IMG/VR virus record: IMGVR_UViG_3300033142_000699
Location: 1 to 39,604 of that record
Direction: 5' to 3' (one strand)
DNA: 39,604 nt
From: a virus
Below are positions 3,253-28,391 of this stretch, one piece after another. Numbering within the stretch: position 1 is the first letter of the stretch; each line of letters starts with the position of its first letter. The notes beneath the pieces are model-generated. The model saw only the letters and a program-made list of their open reading frames with translations. It did no database searches and was not told where the DNA came from. Made by a program: the position numbers and the translations under genes.

Positions 3253-3272
3253 TTTCATAAATAAAATATTTG

Positions 3273-3280
3273 TATCTTTG
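3273..3280 (+). promoter_or_regulatory. Bacteroidota-type -7 promoter box TATCTTTG
   Basis: TATCTTTG fits TAnnTTTG and lies in the 58-base gap upstream of the small gene at 3311, leaving a leader of roughly 25 bases. It probably drives the 89-residue gene and the 1835-residue fibre gene. The -33 region is not clear. Confidence 0.6.
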
Positions 3281-3310
3281 TGCTTTATTAACTAATTAAA
3301 TTATAATCAA

Positions 3311-3580
3311 ATGGCAAAAAAAGAAGTAAAATTAACTACAGACGAATTAACAAAATTACAATCATTACAAAGTGAATATAATCAGCTAAAAATACAATTA
3401 GGTGATACAGTTATGCAGCAATCACTTTTAATGAAAAAGATTGAAGATATTAGAGATAAGTTTAAGGCTGAAGAAGGACCTCTAATGGAAAAGTACGGTA
3501 AAAACGCAACTATCAACCTGGAAACAGGAGAGGTGTCTGAAAAGCCTGCAGAAGCTGCAGACTTAAAGGTAACCAAATAA
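3311..3580 (+). CDS. Small charged coiled-coil protein
   Basis: An 89-residue Lys/Glu-rich protein. Residues about 8-60 show heptad spacing of Leu, Ile and Met (LTKLQSLQSEYNQLKIQ and onward), predicting one long helix or coiled coil. The C-terminus has the short strand-like segment ATINLETGEV. There is no signal peptide, membrane segment or catalytic motif. It is the first gene after a promoter and ends 12 bases before the giant fibre gene. It could be a fibre-assembly chaperone or a minor virion component, but that is inference from position only. Proteins of this size and style are common in marine Bacteroidota phages and remain uncharacterised. The start follows a typical A-rich leader. 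Confidence 0.65.
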   Translation: MAKKEVKLTTDELTKLQSLQSEYNQLKIQLGDTVMQQSLLMKKIEDIRDKFKAEEGPLMEKYGKNATINLETGEVSEKPAEAADLKVTK

Positions 3581-3592
3581 AAATGAAACTAT

Positions 3593-6500
3593 ATGGCTAA
3601 AATATTTAATACTACGGTATATCCTACTATTGTTCCTGCGGCAACAGATTTATTAATAGGAACGGATGTAAGTGATAACAACAAAACCGTAACTTTTAAA
3701 ATTAGCGATATAGTAGGAGGTGGAGGTGCCGCTCAAGATTTAGCTTCTGTATTAGCTATTGGTAATTCAGCAGCTAACAATATTACACTAACAGGTACGG
3801 GAATACTAACAGCAGTTGATGTATTCCCTACTGTTATTTCTGCAGGAACACAAGGTACTCATGGTGTTGTAGGGCAATTTTTAGCATCTACGGGAACAGG
3901 GATACAATGGCAAACTCCTCCAGGAGCAAATTTAACTTGGCAAAATGTTGTTGATAATAGTAACATTGTTCAGGCAAAAAGTTTATTTCTTCAAGATGGT
4001 AGTTTTTCTATAACACAACCAAACAATACTTCAGGTAGTTTTAGTGCAGATACAAAAACATCTTTATCATGGAATGCTCTTGCAACATTTCATAGTGACG
4101 TAGCATTAGGAGATGGAACTGGAACTACTGCTACATCAGTTTCTTTTTATTCTGCAACACAAATTTTAGCTGATGATGGAACTGGAGTAATGGTTCCAGG
4201 TACTGCAGGACAGCTTCTATCCTCAACGGGAACAGGAGTACAATGGTCTTCAGCATCTACACTTATTACACCAACTCTACAAGATGTATGTACTCCAACA
4301 TCATCTTCAGATAATGTATTAACAGGTGTTGGAATTGAGTTTGTTGGTACAAATTTAGGAAGTACAACTTCTTTTGATTCAGATACTATTTTACAATCTC
4401 AAGGTACAGTCAAAATTATAGGGAATGCTGATATTACAGTACCTGCATCACAAGGATTTTTAGAAATTAATGGCGGTGCAATAGATATTAAGGGTGACTA
4501 TACAGAATTTAGAATAAAAGGTTCACCAGGAACGTCAGGTCAGCTGTTAGTTTCAAAAGGTTCTTTATTAACACCAGCTTGGGAAACTGTATCAGGATTA
4601 AATCAAAACCTTCAAGATACTTTAGGCAATGGAAATACAGCAAACGGTACAAATGCAAACATAACTTTAACAGGAAATGCGTCAACTCTTGCAAATCCAA
4701 CTGAAGGAGTTGTAGAGGTAAGTAATGGTGCTTTTTCTTTAGTTGGAGATCATTCAGGTGTAAGTTTAAAAGGTTCTTTTGGTAATGCTGGTCAAGTATT
4801 AGTTTCTCAAGGAGAAGGTGCTACTCCAGTGTGGGGTGCAAACGGAAGTGGTACAGTAAATAACATAGTAGGTGGACTTACTAATTATATTCAAGTAAAT
4901 GTAGATGCTACAACTGCAGCATCACCAGTAGTTTCAAGTTCTCTTTTAACTACAGGAACTTCTATTCCTACTACAACGGGAGTAGCAACATTTACAGATA
5001 TACAAACAAATGGAACAGCATATACTCCAACAAATAATGTAGTTACAACACCAGTTGTGTCAGCAAATGGTTCTGGCTTAACTGTAAATGTAAATAGTGT
5101 AAACATTCAAAGCTCCAGTGATTTTACTGTAGTTTCTGGTGGTACAGGATATCTTGTAGGAGATACAGTAGAAATACCAGGATCAAGTGGAACTCCTTGT
5201 ATATTACAAATTCAAAATGTATCCTCAGACAGATATTATGATGCACTTGGAAAATTTTCAGAACCAAGTGGTAAGGATTGGGATTTATCATTTTTAAATA
5301 CTAACTCAGGTGTACCTGTAACAGTTTCAATACCTTCTGGTCAAGGAGGTTCAGGATATACAGATCCAACAACTACAGGTGTGGCTGTAGGATCAAACGG
5401 TTTAATTGTAACCTTAAATACATCTGGAGGTGTTGCACAAACAGCAACAATTACAACTCCAGGAACAGGGTATGCAGCTGGATCTTCATTTTCTGGGTTA
5501 TCAGGTGGTACGGGTACAGGAACAACTGTAGTGGTTGATACCGTAAAGGGTGATAGTACATTAAGAAATTCAGACGGAACAAGAAGTAGTGATGTTGTAT
5601 TTAAAGAAGGGAATAATATAGAATTTGTAAGAGGTATTAATAGTAGTGAAGTTACAATAAATTCAAGTGCAGGAGGTGGTACTGTAACATCGGTAGGTGC
5701 AGTAAGCACAAACGCTACTCTTTCAATATCAGGAAGTCCAATTACAACATCAGGTGATTTAGATATAGAGTTACCAACCATGTCTGCTCTTACTCCAGGT
5801 TCATATACTAATTCTGATATAACTGTTGACGCATATGGAAGAATAACTGCGGCTGGAAATGGAACTCCAGTGGCTAATACAACTTATGATTTAACATCTT
5901 CTCAGTCTGGTCCTGTTTTAACTATGACAAACCCATCTGGTGGTTCTGGTTATGTAGCAGGTTCTACTTTATCGACTACAGTTGTAACTGGTGGAGGAGA
6001 TGGGAACTTAACTGTTTTAGTTGGAACTGTAACAGCAGGTGCAATAGATGCAAATCAAATAACCGTAGTTGCAGCTGGTGCAGGATATGCACCAGGAGAT
6101 ACTTTTACAGTAGATGGTCCTGGAGCAGATGTAACAGGAGTAGTTGCAACGGTTAGCACAACAACTGCAGGAATAAACTTAGTTCCGTCTACAGGAACTA
6201 CAGATACGGTTCTTTTGAAAGAAGGTTCAAATATAACCTTAACAGATAATGGTTCAAATGAAATAACAATTTCTGCAGCAAATTCTTCAGGAATTGCTTC
6301 ATTTGGTATAGCTACTAACCCAGCAAGTACAGCGGGAACGATAAATGTTACAGACAATACAATAACATTCACAGAGCAAGTAAATACTATAAATTCTGTT
6401 AATTATAATTATATATCTCAAGATATTAGTGCTACTAATATATTAACTACTGGTTTAAGTGCAGACACATCTGGTTTAAACGGTACTACAGTATTAACAC

Positions 6501-9100
6501 ACTTTTTAAGAGCTGATAATACATGGGCTGCTCCAGCATCTACATCTTATATAGGAAGTGGTGGTGTAGATATAGGAACAAATGGTGTTGCATCATTATC
6601 AGGTTTTACCGCTGGTTCTGCCTACAACACTGGAAAAGATTTAGGATATAAAGTTATTTTTGATGTAATAGGTGGTACAGGATCTGGTTGTCAAATATTA
6701 GCTTTAAATACGGGAGGTGTTTTATCAGCACCAGAAATTTACGCAAAAGGAAAGGGGTATACTGTAAATGACACTTTATCTTTACAAGAAGCAAACGGAC
6801 AAGGAGCAACTCCTGGAACACCTGCACAAGTTACAGCTGCTTCACTAACCACTCCAGGAGAGTTTCAAGTATTTAGTAAACCAGATAATTTACAAACACA
6901 ATACAAGCCTACTTTAAAAGCAATCAATACAGGCGGTACTACTGCAGATCCTGAATTAGAATTTACATTATTAGGACCTGCAACAAAATCAGTTGATACA
7001 GTTGCTTTAGCAGGTGGAACTGATATAAGCGTTATAAGAGATAACGATGGACAAATAACTATATCAAGTACAGCTACTTTTACCCCAGCAGTTACAGCAC
7101 CAATATATTTAGATGGTAGTAATATTAGGTTAAATTATAATGATGCTTCCGTTACAAATAATGTTGTTACTGCAGCTGATGCTTTTTCAGCAAGCCAACC
7201 TGTTGTTCCTGCTACTGATACGGTTTTAGTAAATAAAAGAACATCATATGTAACATCATTTAGTGGAAGTGGTTCAGGTTATACTCCAGGTATAACAACT
7301 GGTGTAACTCTTCAGTTATTATCAGGTGGTCCAGTACCCGTACTCCCAGTTGTAAGTTTTACAGTTCAAGGCTCAGGTGCCATAAATACAGCAACAATAG
7401 TATTTACAACTTTAGGAACAGGAGTTCAAGCAAACGATCAATTTAGAATACCAGGTAGTACAGGGACACCAGTCGATATTACTATAACAAGTTCAAATCA
7501 AAATATAGTTGAAAGTGTTCCGATTTCTGAGTTATCTACAGCTATAGGAACAATGTCAAGTTTTGGAATTGGCTCAGATAGTGGAACAGCAACTATTACT
7601 GATGGACAAACAATATCATTTTCAGGGGGTGTGGGGATTACTACAGCTATAGGATTAGGAACTCAAACTGTTACTTTTGATTTAGACTTAAACGAACTTA
7701 CAACATCAACAGATAATGCAGATGGAGACTTCTTTGCAGTAGTAGATACAACAGGAGTTCAAAAGAAATTAACTAAAGCTAATATTAATAACTCAGGTTT
7801 CAATAATGACGCTGGTTATACAACTAATACAGGAACCGTAACAGGAACAGGTACTCAAGGAGTAATACCTGCGTGGGCATCTGGTGGTGCGGGAATTGAA
7901 AACACAGTTCTTTTTTATGACTCAAGTAACAAAGTTTTTTCTTTTAATAACAATAACGTTGTTAATAATGATTATACATTAACAGTTGGTGCAAATGGAG
8001 GATTTGGAAATGGATATATTTATGTTGAAAACACAACTAACAATGTAAGAATAGGTAAAAATTCATTAGGAACTTTAAGCGAAACAGGTTCAGCAGTTTC
8101 TAATACAATAATAGGAACTCAGGCTGGACAAGCTATAACAGATGGTGCTGAAAATACAGTAGTTGGATTTAATGCAATGGCAGCAGCTACAAAACAAACT
8201 GGAAATACTATAGTTGGTGTTGGTGCAATGTCTAATGGTTATGGTGGTGCAGATGTGGCTATAGGAAAAGACTCGTTAAAGTTTGGTGCAAATACAAATT
8301 CAAATCCTAATATTAATGATGCAACTAATAGAGTAGCTATAGGTAATAATGCTTTAGCAGGTGAATCTACTACACTACAAATAGGTGAAGAAATAGTAGC
8401 TATTGGTACATCAGCAGGACAATACACTTCAAGCACTGCAGCAGGAGGTGGTATATTTATAGGTTCTTTTGCTGGACAACATACTGTAAATAATCAAACT
8501 AAAAACGGTATAAATCAAATAGCTATTGGAAGACGTGCAATGCAGTATTTTACAACTTCTGAATCCATTGCTATTGGAGCTTATTCTATGATTGATGATA
8601 ATGCTTCAGGTGCAAAAATTGGAGGAACAGGACATATTGCAATTGGAACTCATTCTTTAGGATCGGTAGGTGGAGCACCAACTGTAAGCGGAAGTTATAA
8701 TATAGCTATAGGATATAAAGCACAAGATGCTGTACAAGATTTAGGTGCAGACACTATAGCAATGGGAAGAGAAGCTAAAGCACAAGGAACTGACTCCATA
8801 GCAATAGGTAGACAAACTCAAGCTGGTACATCGGCTAATGATGAATCAATAGCAATAGGATCTTCAGCTTCAGCTGCAGCAAAAAATTGTATGGCAATAG
8901 GTTTTAATTCAAGTGCGTCAGGAGACGGTTCATTAGCTTTAGGGAAAAACTCAGTTACAACTGATGATAATCAGCTTTCTTTTGGTAGTACAACTGTACC
9001 TTTAGGTCTTATTGAAAACAGCGGAGTAACTGCAACTAAAAGATGGAAAATACATATTAATGGTGCTTATTACTATGTTGGATTAGAACCAGTACCATAA
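3593..9100 (+). CDS. Giant tail fibre / adhesin with YadA-head-like C-terminal repeats
   Basis: An 1835-residue protein. Residues 1-60 (start MAKIFNTTVYPT, then a FKISDIV segment) look like a short fibre N-terminal block. Residues about 60-500 carry recurring strings such as GTAGQLLSSTGTGVQW and LVSKGSLLTPAWETV. Between about 510 and 1300 there are five beta modules built around G-x-G-Y-x-x-G(D), for example GGTGYLVGDTVEIPG and GSGYTPGITTGV. Near 1320-1375 is the DSGTATITDGQT...LDLNELTT module shared with the first gene. Residues about 1503-1798 contain some 17 copies of a short (S/N)-I-A-I-G-x-x-(A/S) repeat like the YadA/Hep_Hag left-handed beta-roll head. The last 25 residues (RWKIHINGAYYYVGL) resemble a fibre C-terminal cap. 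It most likely forms a trimeric host-binding fibre. Confidence 0.8.
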   Translation: MAKIFNTTVYPTIVPAATDLLIGTDVSDNNKTVTFKISDIVGGGGAAQDLASVLAIGNSAANNITLTGTGILTAVDVFPTVISAGTQGTHGVVGQFLASTGTGIQWQTPPGANLTWQNVVDNSNIVQAKSLFLQDGSFSITQPNNTSGSFSADTKTSLSWNALATFHSDVALGDGTGTTATSVSFYSATQILADDGTGVMVPGTAGQLLSSTGTGVQWSSASTLITPTLQDVCTPTSSSDNVLTGVGIEFVGTNLGSTTSFDSDTILQSQGTVKIIGNADITVPASQGFLEINGGAIDIKGDYTEFRIKGSPGTSGQLLVSKGSLLTPAWETVSGLNQNLQDTLGNGNTANGTNANITLTGNASTLANPTEGVVEVSNGAFSLVGDHSGVSLKGSFGNAGQVLVSQGEGATPVWGANGSGTVNNIVGGLTNYIQVNVDATTAASPVVSSSLLTTGTSIPTTTGVATFTDIQTNGTAYTPTNNVVTTPVVSANGSGLTVNVNSVNIQSSSDFTVVSGGTGYLVGDTVEIPGSSGTPCILQIQNVSSDRYYDALGKFSEPSGKDWDLSFLNTNSGVPVTVSIPSGQGGSGYTDPTTTGVAVGSNGLIVTLNTSGGVAQTATITTPGTGYAAGSSFSGLSGGTGTGTTVVVDTVKGDSTLRNSDGTRSSDVVFKEGNNIEFVRGINSSEVTINSSAGGGTVTSVGAVSTNATLSISGSPITTSGDLDIELPTMSALTPGSYTNSDITVDAYGRITAAGNGTPVANTTYDLTSSQSGPVLTMTNPSGGSGYVAGSTLSTTVVTGGGDGNLTVLVGTVTAGAIDANQITVVAAGAGYAPGDTFTVDGPGADVTGVVATVSTTTAGINLVPSTGTTDTVLLKEGSNITLTDNGSNEITISAANSSGIASFGIATNPASTAGTINVTDNTITFTEQVNTINSVNYNYISQDISATNILTTGLSADTSGLNGTTVLTHFLRADNTWAAPASTSYIGSGGVDIGTNGVASLSGFTAGSAYNTGKDLGYKVIFDVIGGTGSGCQILALNTGGVLSAPEIYAKGKGYTVNDTLSLQEANGQGATPGTPAQVTAASLTTPGEFQVFSKPDNLQTQYKPTLKAINTGGTTADPELEFTLLGPATKSVDTVALAGGTDISVIRDNDGQITISSTATFTPAVTAPIYLDGSNIRLNYNDASVTNNVVTAADAFSASQPVVPATDTVLVNKRTSYVTSFSGSGSGYTPGITTGVTLQLLSGGPVPVLPVVSFTVQGSGAINTATIVFTTLGTGVQANDQFRIPGSTGTPVDITITSSNQNIVESVPISELSTAIGTMSSFGIGSDSGTATITDGQTISFSGGVGITTAIGLGTQTVTFDLDLNELTTSTDNADGDFFAVVDTTGVQKKLTKANINNSGFNNDAGYTTNTGTVTGTGTQGVIPAWASGGAGIENTVLFYDSSNKVFSFNNNNVVNNDYTLTVGANGGFGNGYIYVENTTNNVRIGKNSLGTLSETGSAVSNTIIGTQAGQAITDGAENTVVGFNAMAAATKQTGNTIVGVGAMSNGYGGADVAIGKDSLKFGANTNSNPNINDATNRVAIGNNALAGESTTLQIGEEIVAIGTSAGQYTSSTAAGGGIFIGSFAGQHTVNNQTKNGINQIAIGRRAMQYFTTSESIAIGAYSMIDDNASGAKIGGTGHIAIGTHSLGSVGGAPTVSGSYNIAIGYKAQDAVQDLGADTIAMGREAKAQGTDSIAIGRQTQAGTSANDESIAIGSSASAAAKNCMAIGFNSSASGDGSLALGKNSVTTDDNQLSFGSTTVPLGLIENSGVTATKRWKIHINGAYYYVGLEPVP
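8103..8988 (+). repeat. Coding repeat: about 17 YadA-head/Hep_Hag-like units
   Basis: In-frame units have the core I-A-I-G followed by two variable residues and a small residue: VAIGNNAL, IAIGRRAM, IAIGAYSM, IAIGTHSL, IAIGYKAQ, IAMGREAK, IAIGRQTQ, IAIGSSAS, MAIGFNSS, LALGKNSV. Spacing is irregular, from about 14 to 35 residues. In bacterial trimeric autotransporter adhesins these motifs form a left-handed parallel beta-roll. Confidence 0.75.
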
Positions 9101-16192: not shown

Positions 16193-17632
16193 ATGTCAGT
16201 ACAATTAAACCCAACATTTGCTTTACAGCCATCAGCACAAAAGCAAGTGTTATCAACAAACTACATAACTGACTTTGATTTCTTAAATCAGTATCTTCCT
16301 GATACTTATGAAAAGGAATTTGAGCGTTATGGAAATAGAACAGTAGCTTCATTCTTAAGAATGGTAGGTGCTGAGATGCCAACTAACTCAGATATGATTA
16401 AGTGGGCAGAACAAGGTAGATTACATACTAAGTACGTTAACTGTATATCTAACCAAGCTGCAGGACAAAACACTGCACAAATTACTATCAATGACACTAA
16501 TATACCAGGATTAGTTGCTAACCAAACTTCTATTGGATTAAGAGTTGGACAAACTGTTATGATTTCTGATAACACACCAGGTTCAACACTATCTAATAAA
16601 GGTGTAATTACAACTGCTCCAACACCAGGTGCAAATACTTTTGATGTAGCTTACTACGAAGCTGGAGGTCAAACTTTCGGTAACGCAGCTATTTTATCTG
16701 TTTTTGTATACGGTTCTGAATTTGCTAAAGGAACACCTGGTATGCAAGGTTCATTAGAAGCAGATGATGTAATCTTTTCTAACAAGCCAATTATTATGAA
16801 AGATACTTATGAAGTATCAGGTTCTGATATGGCACAAATTGGATGGATTGAAATCACTACTGAAAATGGAGCAAATGGTTACTTATGGTATATGAAGTCT
16901 GAGCATGAAACAAGACTACGTTTCGAAGACTACATGGAAACTGCTATGATTGAGGCTGTACCTGCGGGAACAGGATCAGGAGCTGAAGCTGCTTTAAGTT
17001 CAGCTACAGGGGGTGCATTCCCACATGCAGGTTCTGAAGGAGTATTCTACGTTGTAAATGAAAGAGGAAATGTTTGGGGTGGAGGAAACCCAACAACTCT
17101 TGCAGGTTTTGATTCAATTATTCAAAGACTTGATAAGCAAGGTGCTATTGAAGAAAATGTATTATTTGTAAACAGAAACTTCTCATTTGATATTGATGAT
17201 ATGTTAGCTGCACAAAATTCTTACGGAATGGGTGGAACTTCATATGGATTATTTGATAATGATAAGGATATGGCTTTAAATTTAGGATTTACAGGATTTA
17301 GAAGAGGTTACGACTTCTACAAGTCTGATTGGAAATACCTAAATGATCCTACAATGAGAGGAGGTTTAGTAGGTGGTGGTATCAATGGACTTATGGTTCC
17401 AGCTGGTTCTACTACTGTATATGACCAAATCTTAGGTAAGAACGCAAAAAGACCATTCTTACATGTTAGATACAGAGCTTCAGAAACTGAAGACAGACGT
17501 TACAAGACTTGGATTACAGGTTCTGCAGGAGGAGCACGTACAACTGACATCGATAAGATGCAGGTGAACTTCTTGACTGAAAGAGCTGTTTGTACTTTAG
17601 GTGCGAACAACTTCTTCCTATTCAACGCTTAA
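16193..17632 (+). CDS. Major capsid protein (HK97-fold, crAss-like)
   Basis: A 479-residue shell protein. Its C-terminal third has segments I associate with crAss-like and related Bacteroidota phage capsid proteins: DMALNLGFTGFRRG, DFYKSDWKYLND, LHVRYRASETEDRR and KTWITGSAGG, ending TLGANNFFLFNA. Residues about 94-173 form a beta-rich insertion (IGLRVGQTVMISDNTPG, then ANTFDVAYYEAGGQTF) that looks like an inserted domain on the HK97 core. The codon choice differs from the neighbours: by my count Tyr is TAC about 14 times and TAT about 7, with many TTC and AAC codons, as expected for a very highly expressed gene. It is followed at once by a strong terminator. The upstream helical gene is probably its scaffold. 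Confidence 0.88.
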   Translation: MSVQLNPTFALQPSAQKQVLSTNYITDFDFLNQYLPDTYEKEFERYGNRTVASFLRMVGAEMPTNSDMIKWAEQGRLHTKYVNCISNQAAGQNTAQITINDTNIPGLVANQTSIGLRVGQTVMISDNTPGSTLSNKGVITTAPTPGANTFDVAYYEAGGQTFGNAAILSVFVYGSEFAKGTPGMQGSLEADDVIFSNKPIIMKDTYEVSGSDMAQIGWIEITTENGANGYLWYMKSEHETRLRFEDYMETAMIEAVPAGTGSGAEAALSSATGGAFPHAGSEGVFYVVNERGNVWGGGNPTTLAGFDSIIQRLDKQGAIEENVLFVNRNFSFDIDDMLAAQNSYGMGGTSYGLFDNDKDMALNLGFTGFRRGYDFYKSDWKYLNDPTMRGGLVGGGINGLMVPAGSTTVYDQILGKNAKRPFLHVRYRASETEDRRYKTWITGSAGGARTTDIDKMQVNFLTERAVCTLGANNFFLFNA

Positions 17633-18507: not shown

Positions 18508-18924
18508 ATGGCAATGACAAAATTTTTAAGAGTAGACAATGCTGCAGCATCAATTGCTGGTGGTAAAGTCCTCATACCAATACAAAATATAGCAGTTATA
18601 GAACAAGCTTCTGCAACTACTTGTGTAATCAAATACTCAAACAGTGACTCTGGCTTTGATGTGTGTACAATAACACACACAGCTTTACCAAGTTTTGCTG
18701 ACGCTTCTGGTGCAGAAAATGCACAGACGTTTGTTGGTGGAAACGTAGACCAGTGTAGAAACATGAGAATGTTAATACAAGACTCAGTAGCTGATGCATT
18801 ATCAACAGGATGGACAAGCCCATTATATGATGTTGTTGTACCTTCTCCAAGAGCAGGTTTTCCTGCAGCAACTGGTGGTACATCTCCTGTACAAGTGACT
18901 ATAGATACTATAGTTTTTAATTAA
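18508..18924 (+). CDS. Small decoration-like head protein
   Basis: A 138-residue protein of beta-rich composition with its own promoter. It starts MAMTKFLRVDNAAAS and contains VLIPIQNIAVIEQASATT followed by IKYSNSDSGFDVCTITHT. The same features appear in the next gene's two ends, so the proteins are related. A helix near residues 90-100 (MRMLIQDSVADALS) precedes a C-terminal beta segment. The position after the capsid gene, the small size and the separate promoter suggest an auxiliary or decoration protein made in high copy. The fold and binding site cannot be read from sequence. Confidence 0.6.
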   Translation: MAMTKFLRVDNAAASIAGGKVLIPIQNIAVIEQASATTCVIKYSNSDSGFDVCTITHTALPSFADASGAENAQTFVGGNVDQCRNMRMLIQDSVADALSTGWTSPLYDVVVPSPRAGFPAATGGTSPVQVTIDTIVFN

Positions 18925-18943: not shown

Positions 18944-20167
18944 ATGACAGCTAAATATTTAGAAATACCAATAAACTCCGTAGCAGCTTCAGGCACTATG
19001 GACTTGGTAATAAATTCAACAGCGTCAACAACTCTTGCATCTGGTACAAATGCATCACAAGGAAATGTAGCTACTATTAGTGGACCTGGTGGTACTAACA
19101 CAGGGTATACTCCTGGAACGACTACTGGTGTTGCAACTACTGGAGGTGGAAATAACGACTGTACAGTTGACGTAGTAGTTAGTGGTGCTGGAAATGTTAC
19201 TACTATTACTGTAAATGCAGCTGGTACAGGTTATGCAGGTTCTGATACTTTAACGATAAACGGAGCAGGTGGTACAAACTGTACTTTTACTGTTTCTACG
19301 GTAGACAACGCAAGTATTCCAGCAAGATTGACTGACTCAAGTGCAACATTTGTAACAGATGGAATTGCTGCAAATGACATAGTTTACAATGGAACTTCAG
19401 CAGTTGGTGCGGTTTTAAGTGTAGACTCAGAAACTCAAATTACGTGTACTACAGCATTGCTTCCAGCTGGTGGTGAAACTTATAATATAAGAAAGCCTAA
19501 ACAGTTAAATGCTTCAAGTGCTACATTTACAGCACGTAAAGTAAGAGTTGGTGATATTGTTAAAAACACTACAGCAACAACACAAACTACAGTTGCAGCT
19601 TTAATTAATGAAACATCATTAACTTTAACTGCAGATATTTTTGCAGCAGCTGGAGCGTTTGATGATAATTTTACAATTGAACCATTAGCAACTGAGGTTT
19701 ATGATCCTACTGCAACTTTCTTATCTTCTGTTACTATAGACGATGTAGTTGAAAACACATCTGACAACGTAACGGGTACAATATTAAGTGGAGGTATTAT
19801 TGATAATTTTAGAATAAAAACATCACAAGGAGCAATGTTTGGTGATGGAGATACTTATTCTATTTTTGATCAATCTTCAAATTCTAACAAATTATATTTG
19901 ATAGATAATGTTGTAGCGGTAGATAAAGTTGATGCAACTACGACTAAGATGTTCTTAAACGTTGTAAATACATCTGCTGATGTAGTAACCATCACTCACT
20001 CAGATCAAGGGACAGGTAGAGCTGTAGCTGCGGCTATAGAATCTGCTTTAGTTCGTGGAGCTGTTGGTATTAATTTACCAGAACCTCCTGGTCCTGCGGT
20101 AGTTCGACCATTGATGCCAATCTTTAATGGCTCTCAAGTGGTTGTTGAAAGCGTGACTATAGGTTAA
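18944..20167 (+). CDS. Large decoration-like / head fibre protein with inserted beta modules
   Basis: A 407-residue protein. Its N-terminal 25 residues (MTAKYLEIPINSVAAS) and C-terminal 92 residues (KLYLIDNVVAVDKVDATTT, later VVTITHS and AVAAAIESALV) match the upstream 138-residue protein. Between them are about 280 residues of modules: one GYTPGTTTGV-type module (about 45-118), and three units of about 60 residues (127-183, 187-247, 250-309), each with ATF, then (G)D-I-V-N and ending in a Tyr/Phe-x-Ile strand. The first type also occurs in the giant fibre; the second also in neck and tail proteins. The gene is the last of its cassette, ending before a terminator. Role inferred: capsid decoration with protruding domains or a head fibre. 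Confidence 0.6.
   Translation: MTAKYLEIPINSVAASGTMDLVINSTASTTLASGTNASQGNVATISGPGGTNTGYTPGTTTGVATTGGGNNDCTVDVVVSGAGNVTTITVNAAGTGYAGSDTLTINGAGGTNCTFTVSTVDNASIPARLTDSSATFVTDGIAANDIVYNGTSAVGAVLSVDSETQITCTTALLPAGGETYNIRKPKQLNASSATFTARKVRVGDIVKNTTATTQTTVAALINETSLTLTADIFAAAGAFDDNFTIEPLATEVYDPTATFLSSVTIDDVVENTSDNVTGTILSGGIIDNFRIKTSQGAMFGDGDTYSIFDQSSNSNKLYLIDNVVAVDKVDATTTKMFLNVVNTSADVVTITHSDQGTGRAVAAAIESALVRGAVGINLPEPPGPAVVRPLMPIFNGSQVVVESVTIG
19322..19870 (+). repeat. Three tandem ~60-residue coding modules
   Basis: Units at 19322-19492, 19502-19684 and 19691-19870 encode DSSATFVTDGIAANDIVYN, ASSATFTARKVRVGDIVKN and DPTATFLSSVTIDDVVEN, followed in each by a variable beta segment and a closing strand (GETYNI, DDNFTI, GDTYSI). 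They are divergent at the DNA level, so the duplication is not recent. Confidence 0.65.
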
Positions 20168-20187
20168 CACTTAGACACTATATTAAG

Positions 20188-20221
20188 AAGAGGTTACAAA
20201 AAAAGTAACCTCTTTTTTTTT
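20188..20221 (+). terminator. Rho-independent terminator after decoration genes
   Basis: A perfect ten-pair stem, AAGAGGTTAC (20188-20197) against GTAACCTCTT (20205-20214), with an A7 loop, is followed by an unbroken T run to 20221. It lies about 20 bases after the stop of the 407-residue gene and just ahead of the next promoter box. Confidence 0.9.
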
Positions 20222-20223
20222 GC

Positions 20224-20231
20224 TATATTTG
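20224..20231 (+). promoter_or_regulatory. Bacteroidota-type -7 promoter box TATATTTG
   Basis: TATATTTG begins three bases after the T tract of the terminator and 31 bases before the ring protein gene. This back-to-back terminator and promoter marks the start of the neck/tail transcription unit. Confidence 0.62.
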
Positions 20232-20254
20232 TAAAAGATAAAATTACATTTTCT

Positions 20255-21223
20255 ATGGCCATGATTAACGAAATAAGGAACACTGTTTTAGCTGTAATTA
20301 ATAAAAATAATTATGGTTACTTGTCTCCTCAAGATTTTAATTTATATGCTCAACAAGCACAGTTAGATATATTTGAAGATTATTTTTATCAGTATAATCA
20401 GTTTATTAATAAAGAAAATGTTAGACAGTCAGGTACAGGATATGCTGATATTGTTAAAGGTTTAGTAGAAGTTATTGACTCTTTTTCTGAAGAGGTTTTT
20501 TTAACTCAAGTAAATGAAAACACTTTTAACTTACCAGCAGACTATTACTTAATAAATAAAATATTTTATTACCCAACATTATTGGCAAGTGGTACTACGC
20601 AAATAGGTGGTTTAGCTAAAAAATTAGATTCTACAGGGACACCTTTTGTTGTAGCTGGGGGTTTTAATATACCACAGTTTCCTCCGACAAATAGTATTGT
20701 AATTAATACTGACTCAACAACTTTAGGACAGGCTTTTGTTACAGCTGTAGATTCTACTAACGTATTAAGTATATCGGACTCTATATTTAATGTAGCTTTA
20801 GGTGGTGAAAACTATTCTATTTATGATAACACTAACATAACCGAAGTAGAAAGGGTTAGTCAAAACAAAATATTTTATTTAACAAGCTCTACTTTGACTG
20901 CACCATCTAATCAATATCCTGCGTATGTGTTGGGAGGTAATGTGATAACTGTTTATCCAACAAGTATTAGACAAGCTGGTCAAATTAAAACTCAATATGT
21001 AAGATATCCAAAAGCACCTAACTGGACTTATAGTCAACTGTCAGGCGGAGAACCTTTATTTAACCAATCATTAAGTGGATATCAAGATTTTGAATTACCT
21101 GATTCAGATAGAAACGGTCTGATAGCCAGAATATGTCAGTATGTAGGAATAGAGATTAGAGAAAAAGATGTGTATCAATTTGGTACACAAGAAGATTTAC
21201 AAGAAACACAAACACAGCAATAA
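20255..21223 (+). CDS. Ring / head-tail adaptor protein
   Basis: A 322-residue neck protein resembling the ring proteins of crAss-like phages. The N-terminal helices (NKNNYGYLSPQDFNLYAQQA, then LDIFEDYFYQYN) and FNLPADYYLINKI are the recognisable parts. Residues about 124-191 look like an inserted beta module (LDSTGTPFVVAG, then SIVINTDSTTLGQ and GGENYSIYD) akin to those in the 407-residue decoration-like protein. The core resumes with VERVSQNKIFYL and VITVYPTSIRQAGQIKTQYV. It is the first gene after a promoter and is followed by another ring-type gene with a three-base gap. It probably forms one of the stacked rings between portal and tail tube. I rate the ring identity moderate. Confidence 0.68.
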   Translation: MAMINEIRNTVLAVINKNNYGYLSPQDFNLYAQQAQLDIFEDYFYQYNQFINKENVRQSGTGYADIVKGLVEVIDSFSEEVFLTQVNENTFNLPADYYLINKIFYYPTLLASGTTQIGGLAKKLDSTGTPFVVAGGFNIPQFPPTNSIVINTDSTTLGQAFVTAVDSTNVLSISDSIFNVALGGENYSIYDNTNITEVERVSQNKIFYLTSSTLTAPSNQYPAYVLGGNVITVYPTSIRQAGQIKTQYVRYPKAPNWTYSQLSGGEPLFNQSLSGYQDFELPDSDRNGLIARICQYVGIEIREKDVYQFGTQEDLQETQTQQ

Positions 21224-21226
21224 GAT

Positions 21227-22147
21227 ATGGGATACATTTCAAATTATAAATATTACGAAAATAACGGAGTAAGCCCAACGGATAAAAATTGGGGTTCATA
21301 TCAATATGTAACTTTAAATGATATTGTATCTAATTTTATGTTAATGTATCAAGGTAACAATGAAATAATCAATAACATAGAAAGATATCAAGTATTGTTT
21401 CATGCTAAACGTGGTATTCAAGAATTGAATTACGATGCAATGAAGCAAATAAAAATTCTTCAACTTAATGTAGATGAAGAAATAAGGTTTATTTTACCAC
21501 CAGACTATGTAAACTACGTTAGAATTTCGAAATATATGGATGGTGTTTTATTTCCTTTGGTTGAAAACATACAAACAATGTTTGCTCAGTCATATTTACA
21601 AGATGCCAACGATGAAATAATTTTTGATGCAGAAGGAAACGCAGTTAGTCCTGCTAATTCAGAGGTAGACTTAAGCAGAATTAAAGGTGGTATGTCAAAA
21701 TTATACTTAGGACCAGGACCATATAATGGGCAAATGGGATTATGTTGTGATGGAGAATATTATTTTAATTTTGCAATAGGAGATAGATTTGGTTTAAATA
21801 CTGAGACAGCAAACATCAACCCAACTTTTACAATTGATAGACAAACGGGTGCTATTTATTTTAGTTCAGATATGGCAAACTCATCAGTAGTTATGGAGTA
21901 TATATCTGATGGTATGGAAAATGGTGATAATGACAAGATAAGTGTAAATAAAATGTTCGAAGAATATTTATATGCTTATATAAGATATTCTATTTTAAAC
22001 AATAAATTAGGTGTACAAGAATATGTTGTAAATAGAGCAAGAAAAGATAAGTCATCATTATTAAGAAACGCAAAAATTAGATTAAGTAATATCCAGCCAG
22101 GACGATTACTAATGAGTATGAGAGGTAAGGACAAATGGTTGAAATAA
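21227..22147 (+). CDS. Ring / tail tubular protein (T7 gp11-like)
   Basis: A 306-residue protein with the layout of crAss-like ring or T7 gp11/P22 gp4-type adaptors. It has an N-terminal YVTLNDIVSNFMLMYQGNNE helix, FHAKRGIQELNYDAMKQIK, then LPPDYVNYVRIS. A beta segment follows (FTIDRQTGAIYFSS, VVMEYISDGM), and finally the helix FEEYLYAYIRYSILNN with a basic ARKDKSSLLRNAKIRLS tail. These features recur in podoviruses of Bacteroidota. It sits between the other ring protein and the muzzle-like gene, and one base separates its stop from the next ATG. Role: part of the connector through which DNA is ejected. Confidence 0.75.
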   Translation: MGYISNYKYYENNGVSPTDKNWGSYQYVTLNDIVSNFMLMYQGNNEIINNIERYQVLFHAKRGIQELNYDAMKQIKILQLNVDEEIRFILPPDYVNYVRISKYMDGVLFPLVENIQTMFAQSYLQDANDEIIFDAEGNAVSPANSEVDLSRIKGGMSKLYLGPGPYNGQMGLCCDGEYYFNFAIGDRFGLNTETANINPTFTIDRQTGAIYFSSDMANSSVVMEYISDGMENGDNDKISVNKMFEEYLYAYIRYSILNNKLGVQEYVVNRARKDKSSLLRNAKIRLSNIQPGRLLMSMRGKDKWLK

Positions 22148-22148
22148 A

Positions 22149-25100
22149 ATGGATATTAACACTAATTTTATAGCGGGACGAATGAATAAGAGCGTTGATG
22201 AACGCTTAATCCCACCTGGAGAATATAAAAATGCACTGAATGTTAGGTTAGGATCAACTGAAACCACTGATATTGGTGCAGTAGAAAACTCTAAAGGTAA
22301 CACCAAGCTAACAACACTTGAATATGATGGAAATCCTTTGTCTGCAAATGCAACTTGTTTAGGAGCTTTTGCCGATGCTATAAATGAAACCATGTATTGG
22401 TTTATACATGACGCAAACCCTAACGGTACTACTGTTTGTCTTATTGTCTCATTTAATACTGTATCTGAAGTTACTAATTATCATGTTATTAGCACGAGTG
22501 TATTAAACTTTAACCCGTCATTTTTAATAACTGGCGTTGATTTAGTAGAAGATTTGTTATTTTTTACAGACAATATAAATCCTCCACGTTGCATAAACAT
22601 AAACAGAGATTATCCCTTTCCTGTCTCTGGTGTAGACCAAATAAAAGAAACTGATATAAGTTTAATTGTTAAGCCTCCAGGATTTCATCAATATATTTCA
22701 TCAACAGGTGCAACTATTTATGATTTAGCAGCACCAGTTGTTTCATTATTTACAACTCCAACTGAAGAAGAAAATTATTTAACCGATAGATTTTTATCTT
22801 TTGCATACAGATACAGGTATCAAGACAAACAATATAGTGCTTGTTCATTATTTTCATTAGCATCATTTGTTCCAGATAAATTTAATGTTGCACCCGTAAC
22901 AATGATAAATGAAGGAATGCAAAATAAAGCAAATGGTGTGCAAATACAATATAGTACAGGACCAGAAACAGTCAAAGAAATTGAATTGCTATATAAAGAC
23001 TCTACCTCAAATGTTATTTATGTTATAGAAACATTTAAAAAAGACGAGTTAGGGTGGGGTAATAATGATATTAAAACATTTGAATTTATTGCAAATAAAG
23101 TCTATGGCACTTTAGGATCAGATGAATTATTAAGACAGTTTGATAATGTTCCAAAATTAGCAAAAGCATTAACAGTTCAGGGTAATAGATTAATGTTAGG
23201 TAATTATACTGAAGGATATGATATAACAACAGATAATGGCCAACCTATCCCTATTGACTTTACTACTACCTTATCAACAAATCCTGTGTCTACAGGAGTA
23301 TTAGGACAACCTTTTACTTTATTAGATGGTTTAGGCAACAATGTGTCAATAAATTACACAATCAATGGTCCTCTTTTTGGAACACCTTTTACTTCAAGTA
23401 GTCCATTTAATTCTATTGTATTTTCATTAGAAGGTGTTGAGTTACCAATTCAGGCAGGAATTACATTTGACTTTCCAATAAAGTTTTATTCATACGAAAC
23501 AGTTGGTTTTGCAACTTCGTCTACAACCACTACTGCATTAACTGATGTTTATCCTCTTGGTAATGCTGTTGATCCATTATCTGTTACATTAAGCTATACA
23601 GCTGTACAACAGTTTGATTCAGTTGCCGACATGTTGAATCATCAGTCTTTTAGAGACGCAGTTGGTTGTGATTTAAATGTAAATACAGCTATTGCAACGT
23701 CATCCACTCGTAATACTTTGTTTGATCAGTTTAATACAATAATGCTTGAAAAAGTTGAATTTGCACAAGTAGCAAATGGGTTTGCTGATGATTATATATA
23801 TGACTTTTTTAGTTTCGATAGTTTTGTAAACAAACAAGCTGTTTTTTATTCAGGAGCAATAAAAAAACAAATAGGTGGAACAGGTAACGCTGATTGTTTT
23901 CGTATAGCTTTTCCTGCAGTTGCTTTTAGGCCTGTTAATTTTCCATTTACTGTAAGTGCTATTTATAATTATTTTAGATATGTTTTAATAAATTCTGAGA
24001 CTAATACAGCTAATCCATACGAACCTAATAATGCGTCATACACATTAACTCCAGAGTTTCCATTACCTGGATTTTTAGAAAGACCTTTGTTTTCACAATC
24101 ATTACACAGTAATAGAGATTATGAAACGGGTATTGTCTATTTAGATGAATATGGAAGAGCAACAACACCATTAGTTTGTACATCAAACACAATATATATA
24201 CCAGCTGAAAACTCAATAACAACAAACAAAATTAGTGTATCAATTGATAATAAACCACCGCATTGGGCTAAAAGATATAAATTTGTTGTAAAGCCATCAC
24301 GTGCAACTTATGAAACAATTTATTGTAGAAGATTTTATCCAGATCCAAATGACACTTCGATAGTTTGGTTTGCATTAGAAGGAGAAGACAGGCAAATAGT
24401 AAAAGAAGGTGATCAGTTAATAGTTAAGGCTGATGATACAGGAGCTTTAGATAAAGTTACTTTGACATCTGTACTTGCGGTTCAGGCATATGCAGCAGAT
24501 GAATTAATTGATGGAAGTTTAGCTGGTTTATATATGTCAATGAAGCCGAATAATTTTACAGCAGAAGTTAAAGAAACTGATACAGTAAATTTTGGTAAAA
24601 ACCCTACAGCAGGATTAGAACAATCACCTGATTACAGTGCTAATACCGCAAGTGCTTTGAATGGTCCTCGTGTTTTTTATCCTATTCCTCAAAAATTAAA
24701 TCTTACTACAAATCAATACGAGTTACTTCCTGTTCCACAAGGTGCAAGAATAAAAATAAATTTTAGAGTATGGAGGTCTAAGTGGGATCCGTTTATTGGA
24801 AGTAGTGATCCAAGTGTAGATTGGAGGTGGTCACAAGAATTTGTTTCTCCACAAAATTACCCTTCATTTTGTCATTGGTGGGAAGGAGAAAATATTGCTT
24901 CATACTCGGGTGGTTCTGTAAATAAAGGGCAGTTAGAAATTAAATTACCTCCAGTTCAATCTGCACCTCCTACTATTGTAGGACAAACTGTTAATTTACA
25001 GGCAATGAGTTTTTACTCTTCTTCATCATCTACTTTAAGAGAACCACAAACAGTGGGTTCAATACAAAAAAATCAAATAAACTATGCTTTTTTAGAAAAC

Positions 25101-27425
25101 GTTAATCCACAAGATAATGAAAAAAAGTTTTATTTAATGTTAAAAGCAAGAGTAAAAGCAGGAGGTTCTGAAATTGATAGAAGGCCATCTCACGTTGATA
25201 TGGAAATAGAATTTTATGGACAGGATAATTTAATTATATTTGAAACAATGCCTCCTGACTCAGATGATAATTTATTTTATGACTCGTCAGAACTATATGA
25301 TATTGATTTAGATATTAATGGTGATTTATCACATAAAGGACCTATTCAAGACCAAGTTATTGACACTAATATACCAGCTATTGTTCAATTACCACATTTC
25401 AACTGTTATACTTTTTTTAATGGTGCTGAAAGTTATAAAATTGATGATTCAGCTACAGGAAAAAGTTTAGTTTTAGGACAAAGGACTACAGCTTTATCTA
25501 CAGAACCTTATTCTGAAATAGAAAGAAGTGCCAGTATAACATATAGTGGAATATATTATAAATCATCTGGAGTAAATAATAGTAACGAATTTAATTTAGG
25601 TTTAGTAAACTTTAAAGATTTAGAAAATAATTTTGGTCCTGTTATGAAACTACACTCACGTGAAACTGATTTATTGGTTTTACAAGAAGACAGAATATCT
25701 TACGTTTTATTAGGTAAAAATTTAATTTCTGATTCAGTTGGTGGTGGTGCAATAGTTTCTGTGCCTGAAGTTTTAGGAAAACAAATAGCAAGAAAAGAAG
25801 AATACGGTATTAGTTTTAATCCAGAAAGTTTTGTGAGTTGGGGAAGAAACATGTATTTTACAGATTCTAAACGAGCAGCTGTTTTACAATTATCAGGAGG
25901 TTCAGCACAAAATGATGTGTTAAATGTAGTGTCTGATACAGGAATGCGTTCTTATTTTAGAGATAAATTTATAACACAATTAACTACACAAAAGTTAGGA
26001 GGATATGATCCGTATATGGATGAGTATGTTTTATCTTCTAATACCACTCCTGTACCTACACCACCAAGTGTATTATCTTGTGGAAGATCGGTAACTAAAA
26101 AAGATGCAAGTGTTTTTACGTTAAGAGTAGAAATAGGTGCTTTAATAGGACAATTTAAGGTTGCATACAAAATAGATGGACTTGCTACTGATAAATTAGA
26201 TATCGATATAATATATAATGGAACCTCTACATCTTTTACAAATTTAACGGGTACTTCTAATGTTAATATTAATAAAAATTCTGTTTACCCAACTTTTGCG
26301 GATGTTATTATATCACCACAACAAGAATGTACTTACACTATAACTCCGTTGTGTATAGAGTCTAAAGCAATTACCCAAGTAACTCAATTTGTTTTAACAT
26401 CAAATCCAAGAAAGAGAAATGGAGAAACTTTTCATTATGGTTACAGCTGGACTGATGGTGCATTTGACAGTCCAATAACTGAAGACCAGGCTATAAACAT
26501 ATATCCATCTCAAAGACAGTGTTTAGCAGCTCTGGGTATTTTAGAAACTCAAGTAAACTCAGGTATTGCATCTTCTGGTTTAATACCTTATGGTGGTACA
26601 ACAGTTAAAATGTTTATTGACAAAAAACAAACTGACACTGTAGGTTTTGATATAAACTCAAATAAATTATATGCATACACGCAAAAAACGTTTATAAATG
26701 GATGTAATACTATTTTAGCTGATTTAACAAATTTAACTCCATTAACAATTACCTTTCCAACACCAGACAAAGCTGTAGGTACAGCAACAGATATAAAGTT
26801 GTCAGGATCAACTTTTTCAGGAACAAATAGTCCAGGAGCACCTGCAACTATTATTTTAGACACAACAGTTAATTTTATAAACTTACAAATAGATGTAGGA
26901 GATCTTGTAGAATCAGCCTCTGGAGTAACGGGAACTATTAGTAGTGTGTCAGCAACTCAATTAGTAACAAGTGATAGTACAGGACCAGCAACAATTGTAA
27001 ACCCTAATGAAGCGTATACTATAACCAGAAGAGGTTTAGAGCAATTGGTATTAGTATATGACATGAGAGAAAGAAGTTCTGTAAACGGTTGCTTTGATCT
27101 TTCTTCTACTCAAGTATGTCAATGCACTGGTGTTTGTACTCCATATATAACGACTGTTGTTCCACAATCAAATGCCTTAGATGCATGCTTACAAGGAAAT
27201 GATCCTACAATGGGTGGTACATTTACAGCTGGTGGCCATAGTGGAATACAAGCTACACCTGTGGTGGGTTCCATTTGTTATAGATATCCAACTTGTTCGC
27301 CAACAAATGAATTTTGGCCTGATGGATATTATTGGGTAACCGATCAGTTAGTGTCACCTTCTAATCAAGTTATAAGAGTACAAAGCGGTATTTGTACTGA
27401 ATCATTAATCGTAAACTGTTCTTAA
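22149..27425 (+). CDS. Muzzle / tail stabilisation-like protein
   Basis: A 1758-residue protein. The first 60 residues (NFIAGRMNKSVDERLIPPGE, then YKNALNVRLGSTETTDIGAVEN) are typical of P22 gp10-like tail stabilisation proteins and the muzzle of crAss-like phages, which close the short tail. Long beta-rich repeats follow, with segments such as DLLFFTDNINPPRCININRD and later a propeller-like part (FKDLENNFGPVMKLHSRETD, SYVLLGKNLI). Residues about 1564-1628 look like one ATF/GD-type inserted module (ILDTTVNFINLQIDVGDLVE). The last 110 residues are Cys-rich and end ESLIVNCS. The size is large for the family. It starts one base after the ring gene and is followed by small tail-tip genes. Confidence 0.72.
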   Translation: MDINTNFIAGRMNKSVDERLIPPGEYKNALNVRLGSTETTDIGAVENSKGNTKLTTLEYDGNPLSANATCLGAFADAINETMYWFIHDANPNGTTVCLIVSFNTVSEVTNYHVISTSVLNFNPSFLITGVDLVEDLLFFTDNINPPRCININRDYPFPVSGVDQIKETDISLIVKPPGFHQYISSTGATIYDLAAPVVSLFTTPTEEENYLTDRFLSFAYRYRYQDKQYSACSLFSLASFVPDKFNVAPVTMINEGMQNKANGVQIQYSTGPETVKEIELLYKDSTSNVIYVIETFKKDELGWGNNDIKTFEFIANKVYGTLGSDELLRQFDNVPKLAKALTVQGNRLMLGNYTEGYDITTDNGQPIPIDFTTTLSTNPVSTGVLGQPFTLLDGLGNNVSINYTINGPLFGTPFTSSSPFNSIVFSLEGVELPIQAGITFDFPIKFYSYETVGFATSSTTTTALTDVYPLGNAVDPLSVTLSYTAVQQFDSVADMLNHQSFRDAVGCDLNVNTAIATSSTRNTLFDQFNTIMLEKVEFAQVANGFADDYIYDFFSFDSFVNKQAVFYSGAIKKQIGGTGNADCFRIAFPAVAFRPVNFPFTVSAIYNYFRYVLINSETNTANPYEPNNASYTLTPEFPLPGFLERPLFSQSLHSNRDYETGIVYLDEYGRATTPLVCTSNTIYIPAENSITTNKISVSIDNKPPHWAKRYKFVVKPSRATYETIYCRRFYPDPNDTSIVWFALEGEDRQIVKEGDQLIVKADDTGALDKVTLTSVLAVQAYAADELIDGSLAGLYMSMKPNNFTAEVKETDTVNFGKNPTAGLEQSPDYSANTASALNGPRVFYPIPQKLNLTTNQYELLPVPQGARIKINFRVWRSKWDPFIGSSDPSVDWRWSQEFVSPQNYPSFCHWWEGENIASYSGGSVNKGQLEIKLPPVQSAPPTIVGQTVNLQAMSFYSSSSSTLREPQTVGSIQKNQINYAFLENVNPQDNEKKFYLMLKARVKAGGSEIDRRPSHVDMEIEFYGQDNLIIFETMPPDSDDNLFYDSSELYDIDLDINGDLSHKGPIQDQVIDTNIPAIVQLPHFNCYTFFNGAESYKIDDSATGKSLVLGQRTTALSTEPYSEIERSASITYSGIYYKSSGVNNSNEFNLGLVNFKDLENNFGPVMKLHSRETDLLVLQEDRISYVLLGKNLISDSVGGGAIVSVPEVLGKQIARKEEYGISFNPESFVSWGRNMYFTDSKRAAVLQLSGGSAQNDVLNVVSDTGMRSYFRDKFITQLTTQKLGGYDPYMDEYVLSSNTTPVPTPPSVLSCGRSVTKKDASVFTLRVEIGALIGQFKVAYKIDGLATDKLDIDIIYNGTSTSFTNLTGTSNVNINKNSVYPTFADVIISPQQECTYTITPLCIESKAITQVTQFVLTSNPRKRNGETFHYGYSWTDGAFDSPITEDQAINIYPSQRQCLAALGILETQVNSGIASSGLIPYGGTTVKMFIDKKQTDTVGFDINSNKLYAYTQKTFINGCNTILADLTNLTPLTITFPTPDKAVGTATDIKLSGSTFSGTNSPGAPATIILDTTVNFINLQIDVGDLVESASGVTGTISSVSATQLVTSDSTGPATIVNPNEAYTITRRGLEQLVLVYDMRERSSVNGCFDLSSTQVCQCTGVCTPYITTVVPQSNALDACLQGNDPTMGGTFTAGGHSGIQATPVVGSICYRYPTCSPTNEFWPDGYYWVTDQLVSPSNQVIRVQSGICTESLIVNCS

Positions 27426-27426
27426 T

Positions 27427-27603
27427 ATGCCAAGTAATTTAACAATATTTTTTGATAGCCCATATTTTTGTACTGCAACAGCAATATTTCAAGATGCAGA
27501 CTTAACAATTTATGCGGTATCTGGATATTATGCTTATCAATCTCAAAAAAGATTTTGGAACGCATCAACTAAAGTATTAGGACCTTGTGAAAACTGTAGT
27601 TAA
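27427..27603 (+). CDS. 58-aa tail-tip-like module
   Basis: A short gene running from the ATG one base after the muzzle-like stop to TAA at 27603, and two bases before the next ATG. The protein begins MPSNLTIFFDSPYFCTA and ends RFWNASTKVLGPCENCS. It has a GYYAYQSQKRFW segment and four Cys residues. This resembles the final part of the preceding large protein (GYYWVT, then a terminal Cys-Ser), and the GYY..W..C pattern seen at tail-tip C-termini in Bacteroidota phages. It may be a split-off or duplicated tail-tip unit. The very tight gene spacing supports translation. Confidence 0.6.
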   Translation: MPSNLTIFFDSPYFCTATAIFQDADLTIYAVSGYYAYQSQKRFWNASTKVLGPCENCS

Positions 27604-27605
27604 TT

Positions 27606-28391
27606 ATGTCTAAACAAAACGAAACATTATCATATAGCGAAGGTTCAAAAGGATGGCCTTCATTTTATTCTTACATACCTGAGTTTATGAAAGGCATGAA
27701 TAGTTATTTCTATAGTTTTGACGGTGGTAATTTATATCGTCACAATACCAATACACTAAGAAATAATTATTACGGTGTACAGTATGAGTCATCTATTACA
27801 GGTGTATTTAATACTAAACCTCTGGTCATAAAGCTGTTTAAGACAATGTCTTTTGAAAGTAATGCGGCATGGGAAGTAAAAAGCTTATTTACAGACTTAA
27901 GCACTGGTTCTATGTTAGATACATTTTTTGAACAAAAAGAAGGAGAGTGGTTTAGTTATATAAGAAACAAAGAAACAACACTTGATTTTAAATTAAGATC
28001 TGCTAATGGTATTGCAAACTTAGTTGACTCACAAGACATTCAACCACCTGTACCTCCAGCATTAGGAGAGTATCAATTAGAATTTGATGCAACAGTAAAC
28101 ATAGGTAGTATTATTAGTTATGGAGATTCTGTATTTGAACAAGCTGGTTCAAGTAATGTATTGTTAGGAACAGTTGCATCGGTTAACAAAAATAAATTAA
28201 TTATAAATTATGATGGAGCTACACCTAATCCGACTGTTGGAAATTTTATTTTCTTTTATAAAAATCCAGTTGCTGAGTCTAACGGTGCAAGAGGATACTT
28301 TATGCAGTTTGAAATAACCCTTCCTACAACGGTAACTACGCCAGTTGAATTGTTTTCTGTAGGGAGTAGCATCATGCAAAGTTATCCATAG
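27606..28391 (+). CDS. Conserved tail protein
   Basis: A 261-residue protein beginning with SYSEGSKGWPSFYSYIPEFM followed by YFYSFDGGNLYRHNTNTLRN and YYGVQYESSITGVFN. This GW.SF...P..M...N..Y.F..G.L..HN pattern is one I associate with tail proteins of crAss-like and related Bacteroidota phages, downstream of the muzzle. Residues about 155-220 hold a beta segment (YGDSVFEQAGSSN, LLGTVASVNKNKL) somewhat like the dispersed modules elsewhere in the window. The C-terminus resumes with GYFMQFEITLPTT. No enzymatic motif is seen. It is the last gene of the tail operon before a promoter. A part in the tail hub or fibre attachment is inferred. Confidence 0.62.
   Translation: MSKQNETLSYSEGSKGWPSFYSYIPEFMKGMNSYFYSFDGGNLYRHNTNTLRNNYYGVQYESSITGVFNTKPLVIKLFKTMSFESNAAWEVKSLFTDLSTGSMLDTFFEQKEGEWFSYIRNKETTLDFKLRSANGIANLVDSQDIQPPVPPALGEYQLEFDATVNIGSIISYGDSVFEQAGSSNVLLGTVASVNKNKLIINYDGATPNPTVGNFIFFYKNPVAESNGARGYFMQFEITLPTTVTTPVELFSVGSSIMQSYP

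Follow-up and report, generated by a model that had tools for sequence, protein, structure and literature searches.

A small beta module recurring in ring, muzzle and probable decoration proteins of a crAss-like phage as a candidate mobile accessory domain

The viral DNA analysed here, a 39.6-kb stretch referred to throughout as the window, carries its head and tail genes in a crAss-like order: terminase, P22-like portal, scaffold-like protein, capsid, a 252-aa protein, a 138-aa protein (p138), a 407-aa protein (p407), the ring protein, a 306-aa protein, the muzzle and a 261-aa protein (Table 1). In the tail barrel of phicrAss001, dodecameric rings are stacked and end in a hexameric muzzle (PMC10172136). 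Those rings, 7qoj chains D, F and E, are the closest Foldseek matches of the AF2 model of the window's ring protein (pLDDT 76; E about 4e-6), which like them comprises a helical domain and a beta-sandwich. The muzzle orthologue of one related contig (L007) matches the Pfam family crAss_MUZ (PF25731), for which the window's own 1758-aa muzzle protein did not reach the threshold. The Pfam crassvirus muzzle C-terminal domain (PF25729) is found on the separate 261-aa gene downstream, and the muzzle is thus apparently split into two genes here (22149-28391). Elsewhere in the window (2356-9100), two genes probably code for adhesion or fibre proteins: one product, of 298 aa, has a Laminin_G_3 (concanavalin A-like lectin) domain, and the other, of 1835 aa, has YadA head repeats.

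Table 1. Genes, module copies and insertion sites discussed in the text; the last four rows are sites within muzzle proteins of the window and its relatives.
Feature	Coordinates in the window	Strand	Residues	Basis or remark
138-aa protein	18508..18924	+		module-free paralogue of the 407-aa base domain
407-aa protein	18944..20167	+		split p138-like base, one GxGY module, three beta modules
Second, different module of the 407-aa protein (GxGY...GGGN..TV...G.GY)	19052..19318	+		alignment; PHROGs matches
Beta module copy 1, 407-aa protein	19322..19498	+	127-185	expanded HMM i-E 3e-20
Beta module copy 2, 407-aa protein	19499..19684	+	186-247	expanded HMM i-E 2e-22
Beta module copy 3, 407-aa protein	19691..19870	+	249-309	expanded HMM i-E 3e-14
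Ring (tail-barrel) protein	20255..21223	+		Foldseek: phicrAss001 rings 7qoj D, F, E; phrog_14543
Ring insertion, leader plus beta module	20585..20833 (module about 20618-20827)	+	122-191 (module)	expanded HMM i-E 4e-15
Muzzle-like tail-tip protein, 1758 aa	22149..27425	+		phrog_14478, E 5e-212
Muzzle insertion with diverged beta module	26778..27035 (module about 26844-27032)	+	about 1566-1628 (module)	expanded HMM, clean insertion
Muzzle site			near 490	L196
Muzzle site			near 1035	L030, L048, L064 and others
Muzzle site			near 1320	L007, L090
Muzzle site			near 1570	window, L085

The gene of p407 sits between the capsid and ring genes, and its product is probably a head or neck decoration protein. 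The first ~20 and last ~95 residues of p407 match the adjoining 138-aa family, as a profile comparison of that family with the split base of the 407-aa family shows (hhalign probability 99.4, E 4e-21). p407 can thus be described as a 138-like protein that was opened after its first strand to accommodate a GxGY module and a string of beta modules. Among its orthologues, the number of beta modules varies from one to three. On other contigs, the interval from the 252-aa protein to the ring gene contains one to three small proteins of the 138/407 type (for example on L036, L161 and L170).

A sequence-only reading of this DNA had placed the beta module at five locations, namely the 407-aa, ring and muzzle proteins and, as weaker candidates, a capsid insertion and the 261-aa protein. 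The three tandem copies of p407 were borne out, and a hidden Markov model built solely from them recovered the ring protein from the window proteome at E 0.001 and the muzzle domain only at i-E 0.04, with the capsid far below. Applied to the open reading frames of about 90 fetched contigs and the window, the same model gave significant matches in 407-aa homologues, rings and muzzles. Its iteration led to a stable family, and reversed-protein decoys returned zero matches with any iterated model in every round. An expanded model was built from 305 segments of the module on other contigs; it excluded the window record and included near-identical contigs of the same phage (Table 1). This model scored the muzzle domain at i-E 0.0012. 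Taken in isolation, the ring segment was equalled by none of 1000 shuffles, and neither was the muzzle segment (E 6e-7), which hhalign aligned with one relative at a probability of 79% (E 1.7e-5). The ring copy is confirmed. So is the muzzle copy of the window, which is weak by sequence alone but has the clean junctions of an insertion when set against all the other aligned muzzles except that of L085.

The two weaker candidates did not hold up. The capsid insertion (16472-16711) scored -0.6 against the module, 524 of 1000 shuffles did as well, and hhalign gave a probability of 1%; this segment corresponds to the E-loop insertion domain common to crassviruses (PMC10172136). The segment of the 261-aa protein (28067-28266) was matched by 25 of 1000 shuffles and reached an hhalign probability of 52%. 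It is intrinsic to its family, being present in every aligned member, and is therefore not an insertion.

The junctions of the remaining copies are well defined. In the ring protein, the module and a leader of about 10 residues replace a short turn between the conserved segments YYLINK... and ...EVERVSQNKI, and the insert is missing from the rings of Elemovirus, Maribacter phage Panino and the spring-water phage ctfjg026. Rings with and rings without the module are both common among the sampled loci. On a tree built without the insert, its presence or absence changes state about four to five times, where the count of five scores contig L248 as negative even though a diverged copy is visible there. 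Of the 47 module-bearing rings in the tree, 38 fall in one starred clade, every member of which keeps the module. In muzzle proteins at least four insertion sites are in use, each of them a short loop in relatives (Table 1), and within the sampled set the site occupied in the window is common only to L085. Together, the junctions, the variation in copy number and the differing muzzle sites lend good support to the earlier proposal of a mobile domain inserted into several virion proteins of one phage.

In a first sample of loci, every scorable module-bearing ring was flanked by a gene of the 138/407 type or by a gap of the same length, as if the two depended on each other. Fetching loci by the module rather than by the ring uncovered 12 module-bearing rings that have no p138/p407 gene. 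Given these and the paucity of phylogenetically independent pairs, the apparent partnership is withdrawn as a sampling effect of how the loci had been fetched.

The module extends well beyond this phage. A search with the consensus sequence matched 69 viral contigs and one genome contig; many of the viral matches are crAss-like rings, and others are not crAss-like. Outside the crAss-like phages, the module occurs in a Baseplate_J protein, where it corresponds to an exact gap in a Klebsiella phage homologue, and in a podoviral tail-tubular-B/stabilisation protein whose relatives have an E1_FCCH domain at the same place. The module classes, namely p407, ring, muzzle, baseplate J and tail-tubular B, are non-homologous. 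Further module-bearing proteins match structural, tail and tail-fibre PHROGs, and some are unassigned. Among prokaryote genomes, an exact-peptide-pattern search, by which diverged bacterial copies could be missed, gave one match in 84,980, and the module-bearing protein of the matching contig is itself Baseplate-J-like. No matching family for the module was found in Pfam, PHROGs, NCBIfam or the PDB, where its sequence relatives appear only at E 0.46 or above, and a tblastn search of the consensus against phage records gave no match, to which low-complexity masking may contribute. As judged from these sequence comparisons, the module is an undescribed, phage-restricted family.

The module comprises about 56 residues with the consensus QLTDSTATFTTDTVAVGDIVVNTTTGTQATVTAVDSATTLTLSADIFNAGGDNYSI. 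Its conserved columns (F9, G17-D18, V20, N22, V31, L40, Y54 and I56) are hydrophobic, core or turn positions; no binding site is obvious among them and no ligand is evident. In the AF2 model of p407 (pLDDT 82), each copy forms about five short strands with pLDDT mostly between 85 and 95. Our best guess is an SH3-like fold or another small barrel. Whole p407 gave no usable Foldseek match in the PDB, V-ATPases being listed weakly.

Within the ring protein, mean identity is 46% for the module, 66% for the beta-sandwich and 80% for the helices. The module thus diverges fastest, as would fit a peripheral domain. The closest in sequence to any module are those that occupy its position in other phages; the insertions are therefore old and have since been inherited in place. 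Two modules from one phage resemble each other no more than two from different phages do (observed similarity 0.120, permuted mean 0.127, p 0.96), and no exchange or homogenisation among the modules of one genome was detected, the clustering being by position and not by phage. The earlier, tentative idea that the module gives one shared surface, for instance to bind glycans or to hold virions together, finds no backing in within-phage likeness, which gives no hint of a common ligand, in the conserved columns, which are those of a core and its turns, or in the withdrawn link between the ring module and the p138/p407 gene.

Ig-like domains (Big_1, Big_2, I-set, FN3) on phage virions were reportedly described by Fraser and colleagues in 2006. 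Neither the module consensus nor any of 39 members matched these Pfam families. Phage Ig-like domains are present in proteins of the tail fibre, baseplate, tail tube and capsid and in Hoc, and their role is mostly unproven (PMC9022992). Like the module, they are accessory beta domains of several virion protein classes, added in loops or at ends and dispensable in relatives (PMC9022992). The module differs in belonging to another, shorter sequence family of about five strands, in its presence in crAss-like ring and muzzle proteins and in baseplate J, and in occurring by in-frame insertion only. T4 Hoc, a further precedent, is a small protein of the head on which as many as three variable beta domains are strung (PMC10385173); p407, with its conserved base and one to three modules, is comparable. 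Unlike Hoc, p407 has a p138-like base that the modules split, its modules are not Ig-like in sequence, and its presumed placement on the head derives from gene position. BACON and other Ig-like adhesin domains offer a precedent within the crAss-like phages, likewise as modular accessory domains (PMC13370021); epithelial binding was tested there, in Ig-like adhesin proteins, whereas the module resides in conduit and probable decoration proteins.

We favour, with a probability of roughly 0.6, the interpretation that the module serves as an exposed, promiscuous accessory domain in the manner of phage Ig-like domains, with p407 as a Hoc-like protein. Unrelated virion proteins have taken up a five-stranded beta domain of about 56 residues in their loops: the tail-barrel ring at one place, the muzzle at no fewer than four alternative places, and a small protein of the head gene cluster, which also occurs module-free, as one to three tandem copies. 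It would fold on its own and project from the virion surface, an exposure suggested by loop insertion and fast divergence. By analogy, p407 would be a Hoc-like decoration displaying a string of such domains. Less certainly, the modules may together make many weak contacts with the envelope of the host or with polymers of the environment. Homology, the junctions of the insertions, the variation in copy number, occurrence in several protein classes and inheritance by position are demonstrated at the level of sequence; adhesion, drawn by analogy, is put forward with less confidence. The module adds an undescribed family to the few domains that are shuffled by phages among their virion proteins. 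The natural series of rings with and without it, of muzzles with four sites and of p407 with one to three copies would open the disputed role of these domains to testing in conduit proteins, and with the module profile, virion proteins from marine and freshwater phages that are at present without a family could be better annotated.

A rather unlikely alternative is that the inserts are structural spacers or cement that fill gaps between stacked rings, at the head-neck junction and at the tail tip, stabilising the particle with no outside binding. The tandem copies in a probable decoration protein, the fact that one particle has the module in both ring and muzzle, its grouping by position and its core-like conservation are all in keeping with such a role, which is harder to reconcile with related phages that have no module or use another site in the same protein, with the faster divergence of the module than of the remaining ring, and with the lost dependence on the p138/p407 gene.

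Descent from a known domain is compatible with the accessory-domain interpretation, but we also regard it as unlikely. Here the module would be a divergent form of the small E1_FCCH/F1-ATPase-like beta-barrel known in phage tails. E1_FCCH (PF16190) is a non-Ig small domain of phage tail-tubular-B and baseplate proteins, and the Foldseek search with the ring model weakly listed Uba1/Uba6 and F1-ATPase chains, as that with p407 did V-ATPases. In one tail-tubular-B-like protein (L205:2804-4330), the module occupies the slot in which Pelagibacter-phage relatives have E1_FCCH, an apparent domain swap. Profiles do not support the homology suggested by this common slot: none of 39 module members matches PF16190, and the profile-profile comparison (hhalign 10.7, shuffled maximum 16.0) is no better than shuffled.

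It is quite improbable that the module is a nearly neutral passenger, spread by illegitimate recombination into loops that tolerate a small autonomous domain of little benefit. The many alternative insertion sites and at least four to five presence/absence changes on the ring tree would be expected of a passenger, but the insertions persist across long divergence with their core intact: the F, GD, V and Y positions stay conserved, and every member of the large ring clade retains the module. We consider it very improbable that the modules of head decoration, ring and muzzle recognise one another, packing together on one particle or interlocking between particles; if they did, they would form an unbroken sleeve around the virion that makes it stiffer or allows virions to cluster. 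Chance resemblance among beta-rich, low-complexity virion proteins, which are rich in Ser, Thr, Gly and Val and among which the capsid candidate scores at chance level and the 261-aa candidate equivocally, is virtually negligible for p407, ring and muzzle, being already refuted by the reversed and shuffled controls, the clean junctions and the E-values from the model that excluded the window.

The GxGY module of p407 is another mobile virion domain. It is missing from many 407-aa orthologues in the alignment, and has weak to moderate PHROGs matches to phage structural, baseplate, tail-fibre and head-closure proteins. Compared with predicted viral structures, the p407 model resembles fibre and structural proteins of marine cyanophages, possibly through this module rather than the beta module. 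Another protein of the 407 family (L024:8111-8911) has a GxGY-type module close to its C-terminus, as opposed to the N-terminal position in the window.
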